Shown: piece by piece, positions 49,093 through 55,683 of the stretch | Layout: the number at the start of each line of letters is the position of its first letter | Numbering within the stretch: the stretch's first letter is position 1 | NCBI RefSeq assembly: GCF_003568845.1 | Contig: NZ_CP030126.1 | Coordinates: 310,001-374,000, forward strand | DNA: 64,000 nt | Direction: 5' to 3' | Source: Indioceanicola profundi | GTDB taxonomy: Bacteria > Pseudomonadota > Alphaproteobacteria > Azospirillales > Azospirillaceae | The notes under the pieces: model-generated | Seen by the model: only the letters and a program-made list of their open reading frames with translations | Told to the model about the DNA's origin: nothing | The model's database searches: none | Position numbers and translations under genes: made by a program

Positions 49093-49851
49093 TCAGCCAT
49101 CGTTGAGGCTGAAAACGATAGGCAGTTCGATGGTGCTGCGGACTTCGGCCCCGCCTTCCTGTCCGGGAAGGAAGCGCCACTGCCGCACGGTTTCGAGCGC
49201 TGCATCGTCCAGCACGGACCAGCCGCTGCTTTCCACCAGGATCAGCTTTTCCGGCGTTCCGTCGGGAGCCACGGTCACCCGCACCACCGCCTCCCCCTGA
49301 AGGCCCAGCCGCTTCGCCGAATCGGGATAGAGCGGCGGGGGATTGTCGGGATGGCTGCGGGCAGCCACCGGCCGGCGTCCGGGCGCGGCATCCGCCTTCT
49401 GCAACGCCGATTCCAGATCGTACCCCTCCATCGCCGGAATGGGCGGCGGAAGGTCGGGCGCGCGCAGTCCCTGGGAACTGCTGGCGCTCAGGCGGGGCGG
49501 GCGGATGCGCACCGGCACGCCCGGCCAGCTATCCGCCAGCTCCGGCAGTCCCGGCCCGGTCATTCCCTGACCCGCCGCGCCCAACGTGGTCGGCAGCTCG
49601 ATTCGCGGCAGCTCCGGCAGGGCCTGCCCCGCGCGCGCCGTTGCCGCCAGCTCTTCCGGCGGAACCAGCTCCACGGGAAGGGGGGCGGGTAGGCGTGCGG
49701 GCGACGGATTCAGGACCAGCGCGAGGGCAGACAGTCCGGCCAGATGCAGCACGGCCGAAACCAGAATGGCGCGGGCATCGCGGCGGGAGGCGTTCCGTCG
49801 GGATGCATCCGCCAGCGTCGCAGGCGCCGGCGCGTGCAGTTCCGCCGTCAC
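49093..49851 (-). CDS. tonB: TonB-like energy transducer
   Basis: A 252-residue protein with an N-terminal membrane helix (ILVSAVLHLAGLSALALVL), a proline-rich periplasmic stretch, and a C-terminal TonB domain (about 170-250: YPDSAKRLGLQGEAVVRVTV, SGWSVLDDAALETVRQWRFL). The GTG at 49851 overlaps the btuD stop (GTGA), so I choose it over the ATG at 49881. It is the last gene of the B12-uptake operon and most likely energises the BtuB receptor, although ExbB and ExbD are not encoded in the window. Confidence 0.85.
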   Translation of the reverse strand: MTAELHAPAPATLADASRRNASRRDARAILVSAVLHLAGLSALALVLNPSPARLPAPLPVELVPPEELAATARAGQALPELPRIELPTTLGAAGQGMTGPGLPELADSWPGVPVRIRPPRLSASSSQGLRAPDLPPPIPAMEGYDLESALQKADAAPGRRPVAARSHPDNPPPLYPDSAKRLGLQGEAVVRVTVAPDGTPEKLILVESSGWSVLDDAALETVRQWRFLPGQEGGAEVRSTIELPIVFSLNDG

Positions 49852-50654
49852 CGCCCCGATCCGCGCGCCAGCGGCTCCCACGGCAGATGCACCGTCTCCC
49901 CGCTGTCCAGCCGGGCGGCGGCCATGCGGACGCCATAGACTTCTTCCAGCAGGCCGGGGCGCAGCACCTCGCCCGGCGGGCCATCGGCGGCCACGCGCCC
50001 CTGATGCAGCAGCGCCACGCGGCTGCAGAACCGCGCCGCCAGTGTGAGGTCGTGCAGAACCATCAAGACTCCGGTGCCCGCGGCAGCGCGGGCGCAGAGA
50101 ACATCCATGACCTGCAATTGGTGATACGGGTCCAGCCCGGCAACCGGTTCATCGGCCAGAAGCAGCGCCGGCTCCGCCGCCAGCGCCCGCGCCAGCAGCA
50201 CCCGCGCCCGCTCGCCGCCCGACAGGGTGGTGGCGGTGCGGGAGCGGAGGCTGGCCACGTCGCACAGCTCCATCGCCCGTTCGATGGCATGCGTGTCCGC
50301 ATCGTCGGGCCGGCTCCACGGGCCGAGATGAGGAAGCCGGCCCAGGGCTACCAGCCGCTCCACCGTCAGCGGCCAATGGACCTCCGCGCCCTGGGCCAGA
50401 TAGGCTAGGCGCTGGGCGCGGCGGTTGGCCGGGACCTTGTCCAAGGGTTGTCCGTCCAGCAGGACCTTGCCGCCGCGGGGCTGCGCCAGCCCGGCCATGC
50501 AGCGCAGCAGGCTGGATTTGCCGGCCCCGTTCGGACCGATCAACCCCACCAGTTCGCCGGGGCCGATGCGCAGCTCCACCCCGGCCAGCACCGTCCGGGA
50601 GCCATAGCCATGGGTTACGCCGATGGCGGCCAGCTCGCCCATCGTGACCATCAC
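49848..50654 (-). CDS. btuD: Cobalamin-type ABC importer, ATP-binding protein
   Basis: A 268-residue FecE/BtuD-type ATPase. Walker A GPNGAGKSSLL near residue 40, signature LSGGERARVLLARAL near 140, Walker B LLLADEPVAGLD near 160 and H-loop VLHDLTLAARF are intact. Its gene overlaps btuC by four bases and tonB by four (GTG start) bases. Assignment to B12 rests on the riboswitch-controlled operon; by sequence alone iron-siderophore uptake is possible. Confidence 0.87.
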   Translation of the reverse strand: MMVTMGELAAIGVTHGYGSRTVLAGVELRIGPGELVGLIGPNGAGKSSLLRCMAGLAQPRGGKVLLDGQPLDKVPANRRAQRLAYLAQGAEVHWPLTVERLVALGRLPHLGPWSRPDDADTHAIERAMELCDVASLRSRTATTLSGGERARVLLARALAAEPALLLADEPVAGLDPYHQLQVMDVLCARAAAGTGVLMVLHDLTLAARFCSRVALLHQGRVAADGPPGEVLRPGLLEEVYGVRMAAARLDSGETVHLPWEPLARGSGR

Positions 50655-51646
50655 GCCATGCTCCGGCGGGTGCGCAGCACCAGCGCCAGGAAGAAGGGCG
50701 CGCCCAGCAGGGCCGTCACCACGCCCAGCTTCAGCTCCGGTCCCGGCCCGCCCAGCCGCACGGCGATATCGGCGGCCAGGATCAGCGCCGCCCCGCCCAG
50801 CGCCGACAGCGGCAGCAGGCGGGAGGGCTGGTGCCCCACCAGGGGGCGCAGGAGGTGCGGCACGATCAGGCCGATGAAGCCGATGGCCCCCGTTACCGCC
50901 ACCGCGGCCCCCACGGCCAGCGCCGTGCCGACGATGACGAGCGCACCCGTCCGCCCCAGCTCGAATCCCATGGAGCGCGCCGTGTCCTCCCCCAGGCTCA
51001 GCGCGTCCAGCGCCCGGCCGGTGGTCAGCAGCATGGCGGCGCCCGCCAGCATGAAGGGCGCGGAGACCAGGACATGCTGCATGCTGCGGTCGGCGAGGGA
51101 GCCCAGCATCCAGAACACGATTTCCGCCAGGGCGAAGGGGTTGGGGGAAAGGGACAGTGCCAGGGAGGTCAGCGCCCCGGCCAGGCTGCTCACGGCGACG
51201 CCGGCCAGGATCAGGGTCAGCACGCCGGCGTCCCGCCCGGCCAGCGCGTAGATCAGCGCCACCGCAACCAGCGCTCCGGCGATGCCGCCGATAGGCAGAG
51301 CCAGCGGCACTACAAGGGACCAGCCGCTGTAGAAGGCGATCACCGCCCCCAGTGCCGCCGTGGCGGACACGCCGATCAGTCCCGGCTCGGCCAGGGGATT
51401 GCGCAGCAGCCCCTGCAAGGCCGCACCTGACAGGCCCAGCACCCCGCCCACCGCCAAGCCCAGCAGGGCGCGCGGCAGGCGGATTTCAGCGAAGATGACA
51501 GCGGCCGTGCTGTCCCCGCCGGCCCACCAGTCGGCCAGGGCGGTGCCCAACGATACGGCGCTCGGACCGATAGCCAGGGAGCCGATGAACAGCAGGCCGA
51601 CCAGAAGCGCCATGGCCGGGAAGATCAGACGTCCGGCCATGCTCAT
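50651..51646 (-). CDS. btuC: Cobalamin-type ABC importer, permease
   Basis: A 331-residue FecCD/BtuC permease with about ten membrane helices and typical landmarks IRLPRALLGLAVGGVLGLSG near residue 56, LLRNPLAEPGLIGVSATAAL near residue 82 and VTGAIGFIGLIVPHLLRPLV near residue 250. It overlaps btuF and btuD by four bases each. With BtuD it forms the inner-membrane importer. Confidence 0.9.
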   Translation of the reverse strand: MSMAGRLIFPAMALLVGLLFIGSLAIGPSAVSLGTALADWWAGGDSTAAVIFAEIRLPRALLGLAVGGVLGLSGAALQGLLRNPLAEPGLIGVSATAALGAVIAFYSGWSLVVPLALPIGGIAGALVAVALIYALAGRDAGVLTLILAGVAVSSLAGALTSLALSLSPNPFALAEIVFWMLGSLADRSMQHVLVSAPFMLAGAAMLLTTGRALDALSLGEDTARSMGFELGRTGALVIVGTALAVGAAVAVTGAIGFIGLIVPHLLRPLVGHQPSRLLPLSALGGAALILAADIAVRLGGPGPELKLGVVTALLGAPFFLALVLRTRRSMA

Positions 51647-52485
51647 GGCGACCGTTCCGGAGCCTGCGCGACCTGAGGCGCTGCCCGTTGCAGCAGCCGT
51701 GCGCGCGCCTCGGCCAGCAGGGTCACGGCATCCGCCGTGAACGGCCCGCCGCAGGTCCAGAGGCTTCCTGGAACCTGCGGCCGCGCCTCCGGTCCCACGC
51801 TGCGGGCCAGCGCCGGGTGGGCCAGCAGCCGGCCGGACAGGGACGGATAGCCGTCCGGGTCCGTATCGGCCACCAGCAGGTCGGGCGGGCTGGCGGCCAC
51901 CGTCTCCACCGGCAGATAGCCGTAGCCGATCAGGCCCTGACCAGCGGCGTAGTTCTCCAGTCCCGCCGCCTGCATGACCGCATCCGACAGCGTGCCGGAC
52001 CCAGCAGTGAAGCCGCCGGGCGCGAAGGTCAGGGCGCTGGGCCGGGCGGCATCCGAAGGTGCGGCGGCGGCCAGCTTCGCCTCCATCTCCTTCAGCAGCT
52101 CCTCGCCGCGCTCCGGGACGCCGAGGGCGGCGGCAATTTCACGGGTCTGGGTGCGGATGTCGTCGAAGTTGGAGATCAGGCCCAGCTCCAGCACCGGCAC
52201 GCCGCGCGCCTTCAGCAACGCGACCGTGGGCCGGGTGGTGAAGCTGCCGGCCAGGACCAGATCGGGGGCCAGCTCCAGCACTTCCTCCGCCATGCCCTGG
52301 ACGACGGGCAGGTCCCGAGCCAGACCGGCCACATGGGACAGCCCCTCGTCACGGGACAGGAAGGACAGGGCGGCGATCCGCTCCGGCGGGAGCAGCAGCG
52401 CCGCCAACTGGTCGGTACAGAGATTGAGGGAGACGACGCGCCGCGGCGTCTCCCCCGTCACTTGTGGGCGGTCGGACGCCATGCC
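51643..52485 (-). CDS. btuF: Cobalamin-binding ABC substrate protein, signal peptide lost by frameshift
   Basis: The open frame from ATG at 52485 gives 280 residues (MASDRPQVTGETPRRVVSLN), with the type III binding-protein landmarks RVVSLNLCTDQLAALLL, ERIAALSFLSRD and APDLVLAGSFTTRP. It has no signal peptide. Just upstream, in another frame, ATGATG at 52529 encodes MMAAALLLGG; adding one G to the G6 run (C6 on the plus strand, 52501-52506) joins it to LSASAGMASDRPQ and makes a clean signal peptide. So the gene as written is either frameshifted or has a sequencing error. It overlaps btuC by four bases. Confidence 0.8.
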   Translation of the reverse strand, partial: GMASDRPQVTGETPRRVVSLNLCTDQLAALLLPPERIAALSFLSRDEGLSHVAGLARDLPVVQGMAEEVLELAPDLVLAGSFTTRPTVALLKARGVPVLELGLISNFDDIRTQTREIAAALGVPERGEELLKEMEAKLAAAAPSDAARPSALTFAPGGFTAGSGTLSDAVMQAAGLENYAAGQGLIGYGYLPVETVAASPPDLLVADTDPDGYPSLSGRLLAHPALARSVGPEARPQVPGSLWTCGGPFTADAVTLLAEARARLLQRAAPQVAQAPERSP

Positions 52486-52546
52486 GGCGGACGCCGAAAG
52501 CCCCCCAGGAGCAGCGCTGCCGCCATCATGCCCGCCGCCCGCCGCA

Positions 52547-54505
52547 TCAGAACCGCGCCCTGACGCCGGCCAGCACGCCGCGGTCGGGCTGGGCGAAGCC
52601 GTTCGGGTTCTCGATGGCGCGGTCTGCCAGGTTCGTGGCCCTGGCATAAAGCTCCACATCGTCCAGCACGGCATAGGTCACGGCCAGATTGACCAGCCAG
52701 TAGCCGCCAACGCCCTGATTGCCCAGGAAGCTGCCGTCATCGCCATAGACGACATCCTGCCGCTGGCCCACGAACTGCGCCTCCGGCGACAGGGACAGGC
52801 CCTCCACCGGGGTGAAGCGGCCGAGCAGGCTGATGGCGTTCTCCGGCCGGCGGGCCAGACGGGCGCCGGTGCGCCCATCACGGGCGTCGGTCCAGGTCCA
52901 GGAGGCGCGCAGCTCCGCCCAGTCGGTAGGGCGCAGCTCCAGGCTGGCTTCCACGCCCTCCACCTCCGCCTCGTCGATGTTGATGGAGCTGTTGCTGACG
53001 AAGTCGTACTGGATCAGATCGTCGACATCATTGGCGAACCAGGTGATGCCCAGCGTGGCGAAATCCGCCCGGCCGGCGGCGGCCAGATCGGTCTCGACCC
53101 CGGCTTCCCAGCCAAAGCTCTCCTCGGCTTCCAGGTCGGGATTGCCCTGATAGCCGAAATTATTCACGCCGTAGCGGTCATACAGGCCGGGGGCCTTGTA
53201 GGCGGTGCCGACGGCGGCGGTCAGCCGGCTGTTCAACTCCGGCACCTCCACCACGCCGCCCAGCCGCCAAGTGGTGCGGCTGCCGTAATCGTCCGGTCGG
53301 TCGTGGCGCAGCCCGGCGGTCAGGTTCAGGCGGCCGGCGACACGGGCCTGCGCATGGGCGAACAGGGCGACGCCGTCGGCCTCCGCATCCACCTGCTGGG
53401 TGAAGGGGCCGAACTCCGACTCCTGCCGCGTGTCCAGCTCCACTGTCTCATGCACATAGCTGGCGCCGGCCACCAGGACGGCATCGCGCAGCACCGGCAG
53501 GCCGGGCAGAGCGTAGCTGTTCTGCCAGTCCACGCTGGTGCGGGCGCCTTCGAACCGGTCATTGCTGCTGCCGCCGTCCACGGCATCGGGGGCGTTGGTG
53601 AAGCGGCGGTCATAGATGCTCTGCCCCACCGCGAGGCGGGAGGTCAGCGCGCCGGCCAGCAGGTCCAGCTCACCGGCCGTCTGCCAGCTCAACTGCTCCG
53701 CCCTTGCTTGGGAGTTCGGGTCGTCCAGCGGAACATTGTCGATGTCCGCATCCGACTCGCGCCAGCGGACCAGCCCCTCCAACCGGGCGGCGTCCAGCCG
53801 GTACACGGCCTTGGCGATGGCGGTGAGGTTGTCGAACCCGTTCTCCTCCCCATCGCCGCCGGTCAGCCGGTCCGGCGTGGCGTTGTCGCCATCGGTGGTG
53901 AAGCCCTGCAGGCTGAGGCCGTAATCCAGCCGGCCCATGGTGCCGAACAGGCCGGCCGTGCCGCGCTTGGTCCCGTCGGTGCCCAGTCCGAGGTCGATCT
54001 CCGCCACCGCCGGCCGGTCGGCCCCGGCGCGGGTGATCAGGTTGATGACGCCGCCGATGGCGTTGGAACCGTAGAGCGTGCTGGCCGGGCCGCGCACCAC
54101 CTCGATCCGTTGCAGGCCGCCCAGCACGTCGTCACCGAAATTGTAGGCGCCGGCAGCCAGGGACGGATCGTTGACCGGAAGCCCGTCCAGCAGGACCAGC
54201 ACATGGTCGCTGTTGGTGCCGCGCAGGAAGACGGAGGTGTTGGCACCGGGACCGCCGCTGCTCACCACGCTGGCGCCGGGCAAAAGGCGCAGGGCGTCGG
54301 GCAGGGTCTGCCAGCCGCTGGCCTCGATCTCGGCGCGGGTGACGAGGCTGATGCCCGCCGGCAGGCGGCTGACCGGCGTGCGGACGCGGGTGGCGGTGAT
54401 CACCATCTCCTCCACCTCGCTCGAGGACTGCGCGACAGCCGGCAGGGGAAGGATTGGAAGGGCGAGGGCGAGGCCCAGGGGGAACAGTTTTGCTTTGGTC
54501 ATCAT
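52547..54505 (-). CDS. btuB: TonB-dependent vitamin B12 receptor
   Basis: A 652-residue outer-membrane receptor. The start at 54505 gives MMTKAKLFPLGLALALPILP, a signal peptide ending PAVAQ. A TonB box (EEMVITATR) follows near residue 32, then the plug (PGASVVSSGGPGANTSVFLR, GSNAIGGVINLITR) and a 22-strand barrel that ends ANPNGF..GVLAGVRARF. B12 specificity is supported by the cobalamin riboswitch about 240 bases upstream on the same strand and by btuF, btuC and btuD behind it. The upstream in-frame extension to 54667 is rejected. Confidence 0.92.
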   Translation of the reverse strand: MMTKAKLFPLGLALALPILPLPAVAQSSSEVEEMVITATRVRTPVSRLPAGISLVTRAEIEASGWQTLPDALRLLPGASVVSSGGPGANTSVFLRGTNSDHVLVLLDGLPVNDPSLAAGAYNFGDDVLGGLQRIEVVRGPASTLYGSNAIGGVINLITRAGADRPAVAEIDLGLGTDGTKRGTAGLFGTMGRLDYGLSLQGFTTDGDNATPDRLTGGDGEENGFDNLTAIAKAVYRLDAARLEGLVRWRESDADIDNVPLDDPNSQARAEQLSWQTAGELDLLAGALTSRLAVGQSIYDRRFTNAPDAVDGGSSNDRFEGARTSVDWQNSYALPGLPVLRDAVLVAGASYVHETVELDTRQESEFGPFTQQVDAEADGVALFAHAQARVAGRLNLTAGLRHDRPDDYGSRTTWRLGGVVEVPELNSRLTAAVGTAYKAPGLYDRYGVNNFGYQGNPDLEAEESFGWEAGVETDLAAAGRADFATLGITWFANDVDDLIQYDFVSNSSINIDEAEVEGVEASLELRPTDWAELRASWTWTDARDGRTGARLARRPENAISLLGRFTPVEGLSLSPEAQFVGQRQDVVYGDDGSFLGNQGVGGYWLVNLAVTYAVLDDVELYARATNLADRAIENPNGFAQPDRGVLAGVRARF

Positions 54506-54512
54506 GTCAGGA

Positions 54513-54587
54513 CAGGCGGCCGGACGGCGCCTGGACAGGGCCGGCCGGCGGTTTGCGGACGGGCCGCCGCGGACACGCGGCCGTCCG
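54513..54587 (-). promoter_or_regulatory. Hairpins in the btuB leader, next to the start codon
   Basis: CAGGCG (54513-54518) pairs with CGCCTG (54528-54533) seven bases before the btuB ATG, where the ribosome-binding site should be. A longer stem, CGGACGG-CCGC / GCGG-CCGTCCG (54556-54587), lies just above. They may be the expression platform of the B12 riboswitch. Confidence 0.45.
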
Positions 54588-54747
54588 GAGCGCGGGGCCG
54601 GCCTTGGCCGGACCCGGTGCCTCACCGGACTGATCGTCAGAGGATGCGTCATGCGCCCTCCGTCCACGGCAACCCTACGGGCACGTCACCGCAAACGGAA
54701 AACCGTTCCACCGGTGCAACCCCGCCCGATGGCCGCGTGACGCATGA

Positions 54748-54962
54748 CGCCGGCAGGTCTCCTGGCTCTCGGGTCTTTGTCGGCCGCCCGGCCTTCCCAG
54801 TCCGCCGCCCCTTTCGCCGACATGGCGCGGAGGCGGGTTTCCAGTGGCATCCGCGGGGATGGACCCCGGGGGGCGGCCGGCTCACCGATCACAGTTGCGG
54901 GGGCAGCCGCGGCGTAGGCCCGGTTGGAACCGGGCCGCACACGCGTTCCCTTTTCACCCTGT
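54748..54962 (-). promoter_or_regulatory. Cobalamin riboswitch (aptamer) upstream of btuB
   Basis: On the minus strand the B12-box GAGCCAGGAGACCTGCCGG occupies 54750-54768. Upstream stands the conserved core GGCTGCCCCCGCAACTGTGA (54890-54909) and, at the 5' end, AAAGGGAACGCG. Together these are the hallmarks of the adenosylcobalamin/cobalamin riboswitch class. It is placed to repress btuB and the following uptake genes when B12 is plentiful. The expression platform is the 242-base stretch up to 54506. Confidence 0.92.
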
Positions 54963-55110
54963 CGTGGGGACCGACGCTAGGGCCACTCTATTCCTGGCGG
55001 AACCGCCGCCGCAAGCGCCGCCGACCGCTGCGGGCGCACAGGGCAGCCGTGCAATCTGATACTTGGGTACCATGGCGGCGGCGCCGGAAGGCAGGTAGCC
55101 TGAAGCCGTC

Positions 55111-55683
55111 ATGATGGGATCGACGGACAGACCAAGGCTCGGAATCACGGGAAGTGCCGGTACTGGCAAGACCACGCTCGCCGGGAGATTGGCGCAAACG
55201 CTGGAACTGCCGCTGCTGCCAGAGGCGATGCGCGCCATGCTGGAGGCGGGATTCGATCTCCACAGCCTGACACGGGCGGAGCACCGGTCGTTGCTGCGCG
55301 GCCATGCCGATGCGCTGGCGCGCGATCTCGCCCGTACCGATGGCGGTCTGGTCAGCGACCGCACCCCCCTGGATTTCGTGGCGTTCTGGCTGTCCAACGG
55401 ATACGGGGTGGAGGACCCCGATGGGACGGAGGCGCTGTTGGTCCGTGCTGTCGCCGCCATGGCGGAATATTCGCTGGTGATCGTCCTGCCCTGGGGGCGC
55501 CCCATCCCCGCCGACGGGGTGCGCAGCGCCAATCCCTGGCACCAGCTTCATTTCCAGGCGATCATGGAAGGGCTGTGCCGCCGCTGGATTCCGGCGGACC
55601 GGCTGCTGATCCTGCCGGACGGCGATGCCGCCGGGCCGGAGGAGCGCTGCGGCATGCTGCTTGAGCGGGTCGGGAGAGGCTGA
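55111..55683 (+). CDS. AAA/NadR-like P-loop NTPase (AAA_28)
   Basis: A 190-residue single-domain P-loop protein of the AAA_28 or NadR-kinase-like group. The P-loop GSAGTGKT is at residues 14-21 and the kinase-like SDRTPLDFVAFW near residue 87. It could phosphorylate a small molecule such as a nucleoside, but this is unproven. It is divergent from the riboswitch/btuB operon and convergent with the pentapeptide-repeat gene, which ends ten bases from its stop. Confidence 0.75.
   Translation: MMGSTDRPRLGITGSAGTGKTTLAGRLAQTLELPLLPEAMRAMLEAGFDLHSLTRAEHRSLLRGHADALARDLARTDGGLVSDRTPLDFVAFWLSNGYGVEDPDGTEALLVRAVAAMAEYSLVIVLPWGRPIPADGVRSANPWHQLHFQAIMEGLCRRWIPADRLLILPDGDAAGPEERCGMLLERVGRG

Follow-up and report, generated by a model that had tools for sequence, protein, structure and literature searches.

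A one-base frame break at the signal peptide of a btuF-type gene in a B12 uptake operon of Indioceanicola profundi

The closest described counterpart of the gene considered here is BtuF of the BtuCD-F importer, with which it shares the Peripla_BP_2 domain, the flanking btuB and btuC genes and, in its relatives, a signal peptide that is read in frame. It is distant from the E. coli protein itself, with 23 bits against 1n2z and a score far under the NCBIfam BtuF cut-off.

Frames separated by a single base are also known. For the singleton frameshifts of the GeneTack survey that are supported by BLASTp, the authors expect sequencing error, rather than a genuine indel, to be the cause (PMC3711429), and a passage in PMC8812927 describes homopolymer-length errors as the commonest residual errors of long-read-only assemblies. 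Other systems that bear comparison are programmed −1 ribosomal frameshifting and transcriptional slippage (PMC5009743), and phase-variable homopolymer tracts. The btuF gene of I. profundi resembles the GeneTack singletons in that one gene of one genome is affected, the body of the gene is supported by homology and relatives do not conserve the break. It is unlike them in that the break falls at the boundary of the signal peptide, so that the reading frame of the body is preserved and the defect is easily overlooked. The gene lies in a window of 64,000 nucleotides (contig NZ_CP030126.1, positions 310,001 to 374,000), to which coordinates refer unless a contig is named.

A B12 uptake operon with a break in btuF

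The features of the operon are as follows, in the order in which they are read.

54735..54990, minus strand: cobalamin riboswitch upstream of btuB (Rfam RF00174, 68 bits against a gathering score of 31.5)
52547..54502, minus strand: btuB, TonB-dependent B12 receptor (Pfam TonB_dep_Rec_b-barrel and Plug; best NCBIfam match TIGR01779 TonB-B12, 3.8e-98, below cut-off)
52545..52549, minus strand: TGATG overlap of the btuB stop and the predicted original btuF start (sequence; same junction in genomes G002, G009, G027 and G014)
52507..52547, minus strand: displaced signal-peptide segment MRRAAGMMAAALLL, in a frame different from that of the btuF body (translation; position homologous to the in-frame signal peptides of relatives)
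52501..52506, minus strand: run of six Gs, the site of the frame break, one G short of an open frame (sequence)
52458..52500, minus strand: out-of-frame tail FRRPPAWRPTAHK and stop TGA, 3' of the G run (translation)
51643..52482, minus strand: btuF body, 279 aa when read from the in-frame fallback ATG, lacking the signal peptide but otherwise intact (Pfam Peripla_BP_2, PF01497, 4.2e-15, above cut-off; 73-74% identity to G002)
50651..51646, minus strand: btuC permease (Pfam FecCD, 3.9e-82; best NCBIfam matches are BtuC models, below cut-off)
49848..50654, minus strand: btuD ATPase (Pfam ABC_tran)
49093..49881, minus strand: tonB-family protein, end of the operon (NCBIfam TIGR01352, above cut-off)

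The minus-strand order of riboswitch, btuB, btuF, btuC, btuD and tonB-family gene places btuF in a B12 transport context, and the GC content of its body at the three codon positions (0.77/0.54/0.86) resembles that of the neighboring genes. From its fold and surroundings, btuF is predicted to encode a BtuF-type, putatively B12-binding periplasmic protein that is ordinary apart from the frame break.

The stop codon of btuB (TGA, 52549-52547) overlaps an ATG at 52547-52545. From this ATG, the minus-strand frame translates as MRRAAGMMAAALLLGG ahead of the G run; in its entirety it reads MRRAAGMMAAALLLGGFRRPPAWRPTAHK and terminates at TGA 52460-52458. The body of btuF occupies a different frame, in which LSASAG precedes the last in-frame ATG at 52482 (MASDRPQ...). 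A crude scorer applied to the window copy found no signal-peptide-like start in this frame, and an N-terminal signal is present only in the displaced frame and in the relatives. Adding one G to the run unites both frames and yields a conventional signal peptide, MRRAAGMMAAALLLGGLSASAG, joined to MASDRPQ. These results agree with a preliminary description of this DNA, according to which the btuF frame lacks an export signal of its own, the signal peptide is separated from it by one G missing from a run of six, and an ATGATG at 52529 lies in another frame. That ATGATG shares the displaced frame, six codons past ATG 52547; it had been placed 18 bases after btuB, and the distance measured from the stop codon at 52549-52547 is 17 bases.

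Relatives, chance and slippage

The comparison set for the family comprised 82 genomes, none of them a second genome of this genus, and orthologues of btuF were found in many. In G002, G009, G027 and G014, the TGATG junction is identical and the signal peptide continues in frame without a break; that of G002 reads MRRALAALVTLLAAWQAHAADGPQRVVSLN. DNA alignment of G002, G009 and G027 revealed no comparable G run at the homologous place in any of the three. Across the 27 distinct orthologues, an in-frame signal scored at least 2.1 on the crude scorer in 18; low scores in the remainder are not evidence of absence, because their N termini are longer or placed differently and lie beyond the resolution of the scorer. 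The frame is intact in the orthologues, as is expected where a break is confined to a single genome. The preliminary description had raised the question of whether relatives start at the downstream ATG. They do not, beginning instead at the homologous TGATG, so the reading as a frame break stands.

How often such an arrangement would arise by chance was gauged with the same crude score on 1,389 genes from 2.0 Mb of contig 1. An equally good in-frame signal was present in 198, leaving 1,191 without one. Among these, 13 would gain an equally good signal if an indel, wherever placed, joined them to an out-of-frame ATG upstream, and one (1/1,191), btuF alone, would gain it from an indel within a G or C run of at least six. 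In relatives the gene starts at the homologous TGATG junction and continues in one frame through an uninterrupted signal peptide, and btuF is the single case among these 1,191 genes; its true start is therefore ATG 52547, and not 52529 as had been proposed. The annotation of btuF should accordingly run from 52547 and be flagged as a frameshift.

These figures also bear on the suggestion that there is no break at all, such that btuF starts at ATG 52482, its product is cytoplasmic and the signal-like frame upstream is a coincidence. The frame from 52482 is indeed open from start to stop. Against this stand the conserved junction, the in-frame signal peptides of the relatives and the chance estimate of 1/1,191, together with membership of a periplasmic binding protein family and the adjoining receptor, permease and ATPase genes. 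We consider the suggestion to have virtually no prospect of being correct.

A further possibility is that some of the products or cells regain the signal by slippage within the run of Gs, whether through −1 ribosomal frameshifting on G_GGG_GGC (52506-52500), during transcription or through a phase-variable tract. As in programmed −1 frameshifting and transcriptional slippage (PMC5009743), a heptamer of the slippery type is found at the junction, and the register of G GGG GGC followed by CTT is such that a −1 shift would lead into the btuF frame; unlike those systems, the site is not conserved in the orthologues examined and no downstream stimulatory structure was detected, the RNA fold there being ordinary (z-score −0.85). 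In 2.0 Mb of coding sequence, 59 heptamers of the same type and register were counted. The likeness to phase-variable tracts consists of a homopolymer near the 5' end of a gene for an envelope protein, but the run is of six Gs only, short of the 7-nt minimum used for tract calling in the GeneTack survey (PMC3711429), and it is absent from relatives, which have no frame break. Slippage is remote because such heptamers are common, the fold is ordinary and no examined relative has the break; we judge it very improbable. It is equally hard to credit its corollary, in which export of BtuF would be gated at the G run, a fraction of the protein would be periplasmic and a second B12 locus would provide constant uptake. 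Of the three causes that had been offered, phase switching by slippage thus finds no support, and an assembly error and a broken gene are both retained. The btuF case is an ordinary single-base deletion, probably a sequencing error left in the assembly or else a recent mutation, rather than a novel gene switch.

Residual consensus error or recent deletion

In the sequence of events that we infer, ancestral btuF would have started at ATG 52547, overlapping the btuB stop, with a standard Sec-type signal peptide; the absence of one G from the run at 52506-52501 would then have put signal and body in separate frames, and the absence of that G may be a residual error of the assembly consensus, in which one base was dropped. 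This last is the likeliest cause, and we lean slightly toward accepting it. Any loss of btuF is recent, because the body is intact, is 73-74% identical to that of G002 and has normal codon-position GC.

Bearing on the cause is a frame HMM scan of 2.454 Mb of the 5.37-Mb genome (2.0 Mb of it coding). A final stricter rule left seven candidates, which were mostly ordinary gene overlaps or atypical gene ends, with one transposase-like ORF and two convincing one-base losses besides that of btuF. These two are as follows.

Contig 2, minus strand, about 873996-876421: type II secretin gene gspD, divided within a Gly-rich linker by the loss of one base at about 875121, best-placed site a run of six Gs
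Contig 1, minus strand, about 1936072: xdhC-like gene in which one missing base separates the frame of the N-terminal segment from that of the rest, best-placed site a run of four Gs

In gspD, the N0 and Secretin_N domains are in one frame and Secretin is in another, and one added base joins them; the frames of its paralogues at 990322 of contig 2 and 243048 of contig 3, and of the copy in genome G007, are open. For gspD and xdhC, the precise base that was lost is assigned by fit, because several nearby sites would equally open the frame. The three breaks, each best placed in a G run, fit residual homopolymer errors, and three one-base losses that are all of G slightly favor residual consensus error over real mutation.

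Few candidate frame switches were flagged in 2.45 Mb, of which 2.0 Mb is coding; this speaks against consensus error, and therefore the assembly is not an error-ridden draft. The spectrum of homopolymer lengths does not break off sharply between G6 and G7, and therefore nothing in it points to a general undercall. Despite the gspD and xdhC losses, the assembly is for the most part clean.

The low overall frameshift rate favors a real deletion of one base that arose recently in the sequenced strain, in which case BtuF, if made, would start at ATG 52482 and be cytoplasmic, lacking its signal. Consistent with such a loss is a second complete locus for B12 uptake and salvage:

Contig 2, about 849278-857848: cobalamin riboswitch, btuB, btuF, btuC, btuD, cobU, cobO, cobQ and cobD

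The signal peptide of the btuF in this locus is intact (MIARALLMLLFIALSVGGAQAAPTRVV), and the genome also encodes cobQ and metH. The second locus could make a real loss of btuF tolerable, as the intact paralogues could for gspD, and this redundancy too counts against consensus error. On the other side, btuF and its neighbors show no further decay, and the two other one-G losses hint at a systematic cause. A genuine deletion is a serious contender, to which we give somewhat less than even weight; were it real, this importer would be non-functional and B12 uptake would depend on the second locus.

Breaks close to gene starts

One-base indels spiked into interior runs of at least five were flagged by the scan in 199 of 240 cases, and the final stricter rule detected 86 of 127 deletions in interior G or C runs of at least six. 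Under the same rule, none of 22 spikes placed no more than 60 bases from a gene start was detected, and the btuF break sits in such a zone. The significance of the case is slight beyond annotation. The case illustrates how the loss of one base at the boundary of a signal peptide keeps the body open and evades a frameshift scan based on codon statistics; with the body frame open and the scan blind near gene starts, a protein that is exported can be classified as cytoplasmic.

The HMM was trained on ORFs with GC3>GC1>GC2, and training on long antisense ORFs produced false switches. An ORF of this type is found on the plus strand at 51974-55114, where a frame of 1,046 codons is open antisense to btuB and btuF. 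A transposase-like ORF pair lies in two frames at about 140889 of contig 2, minus strand; it could be a decayed or a naturally frameshifted insertion-sequence gene.
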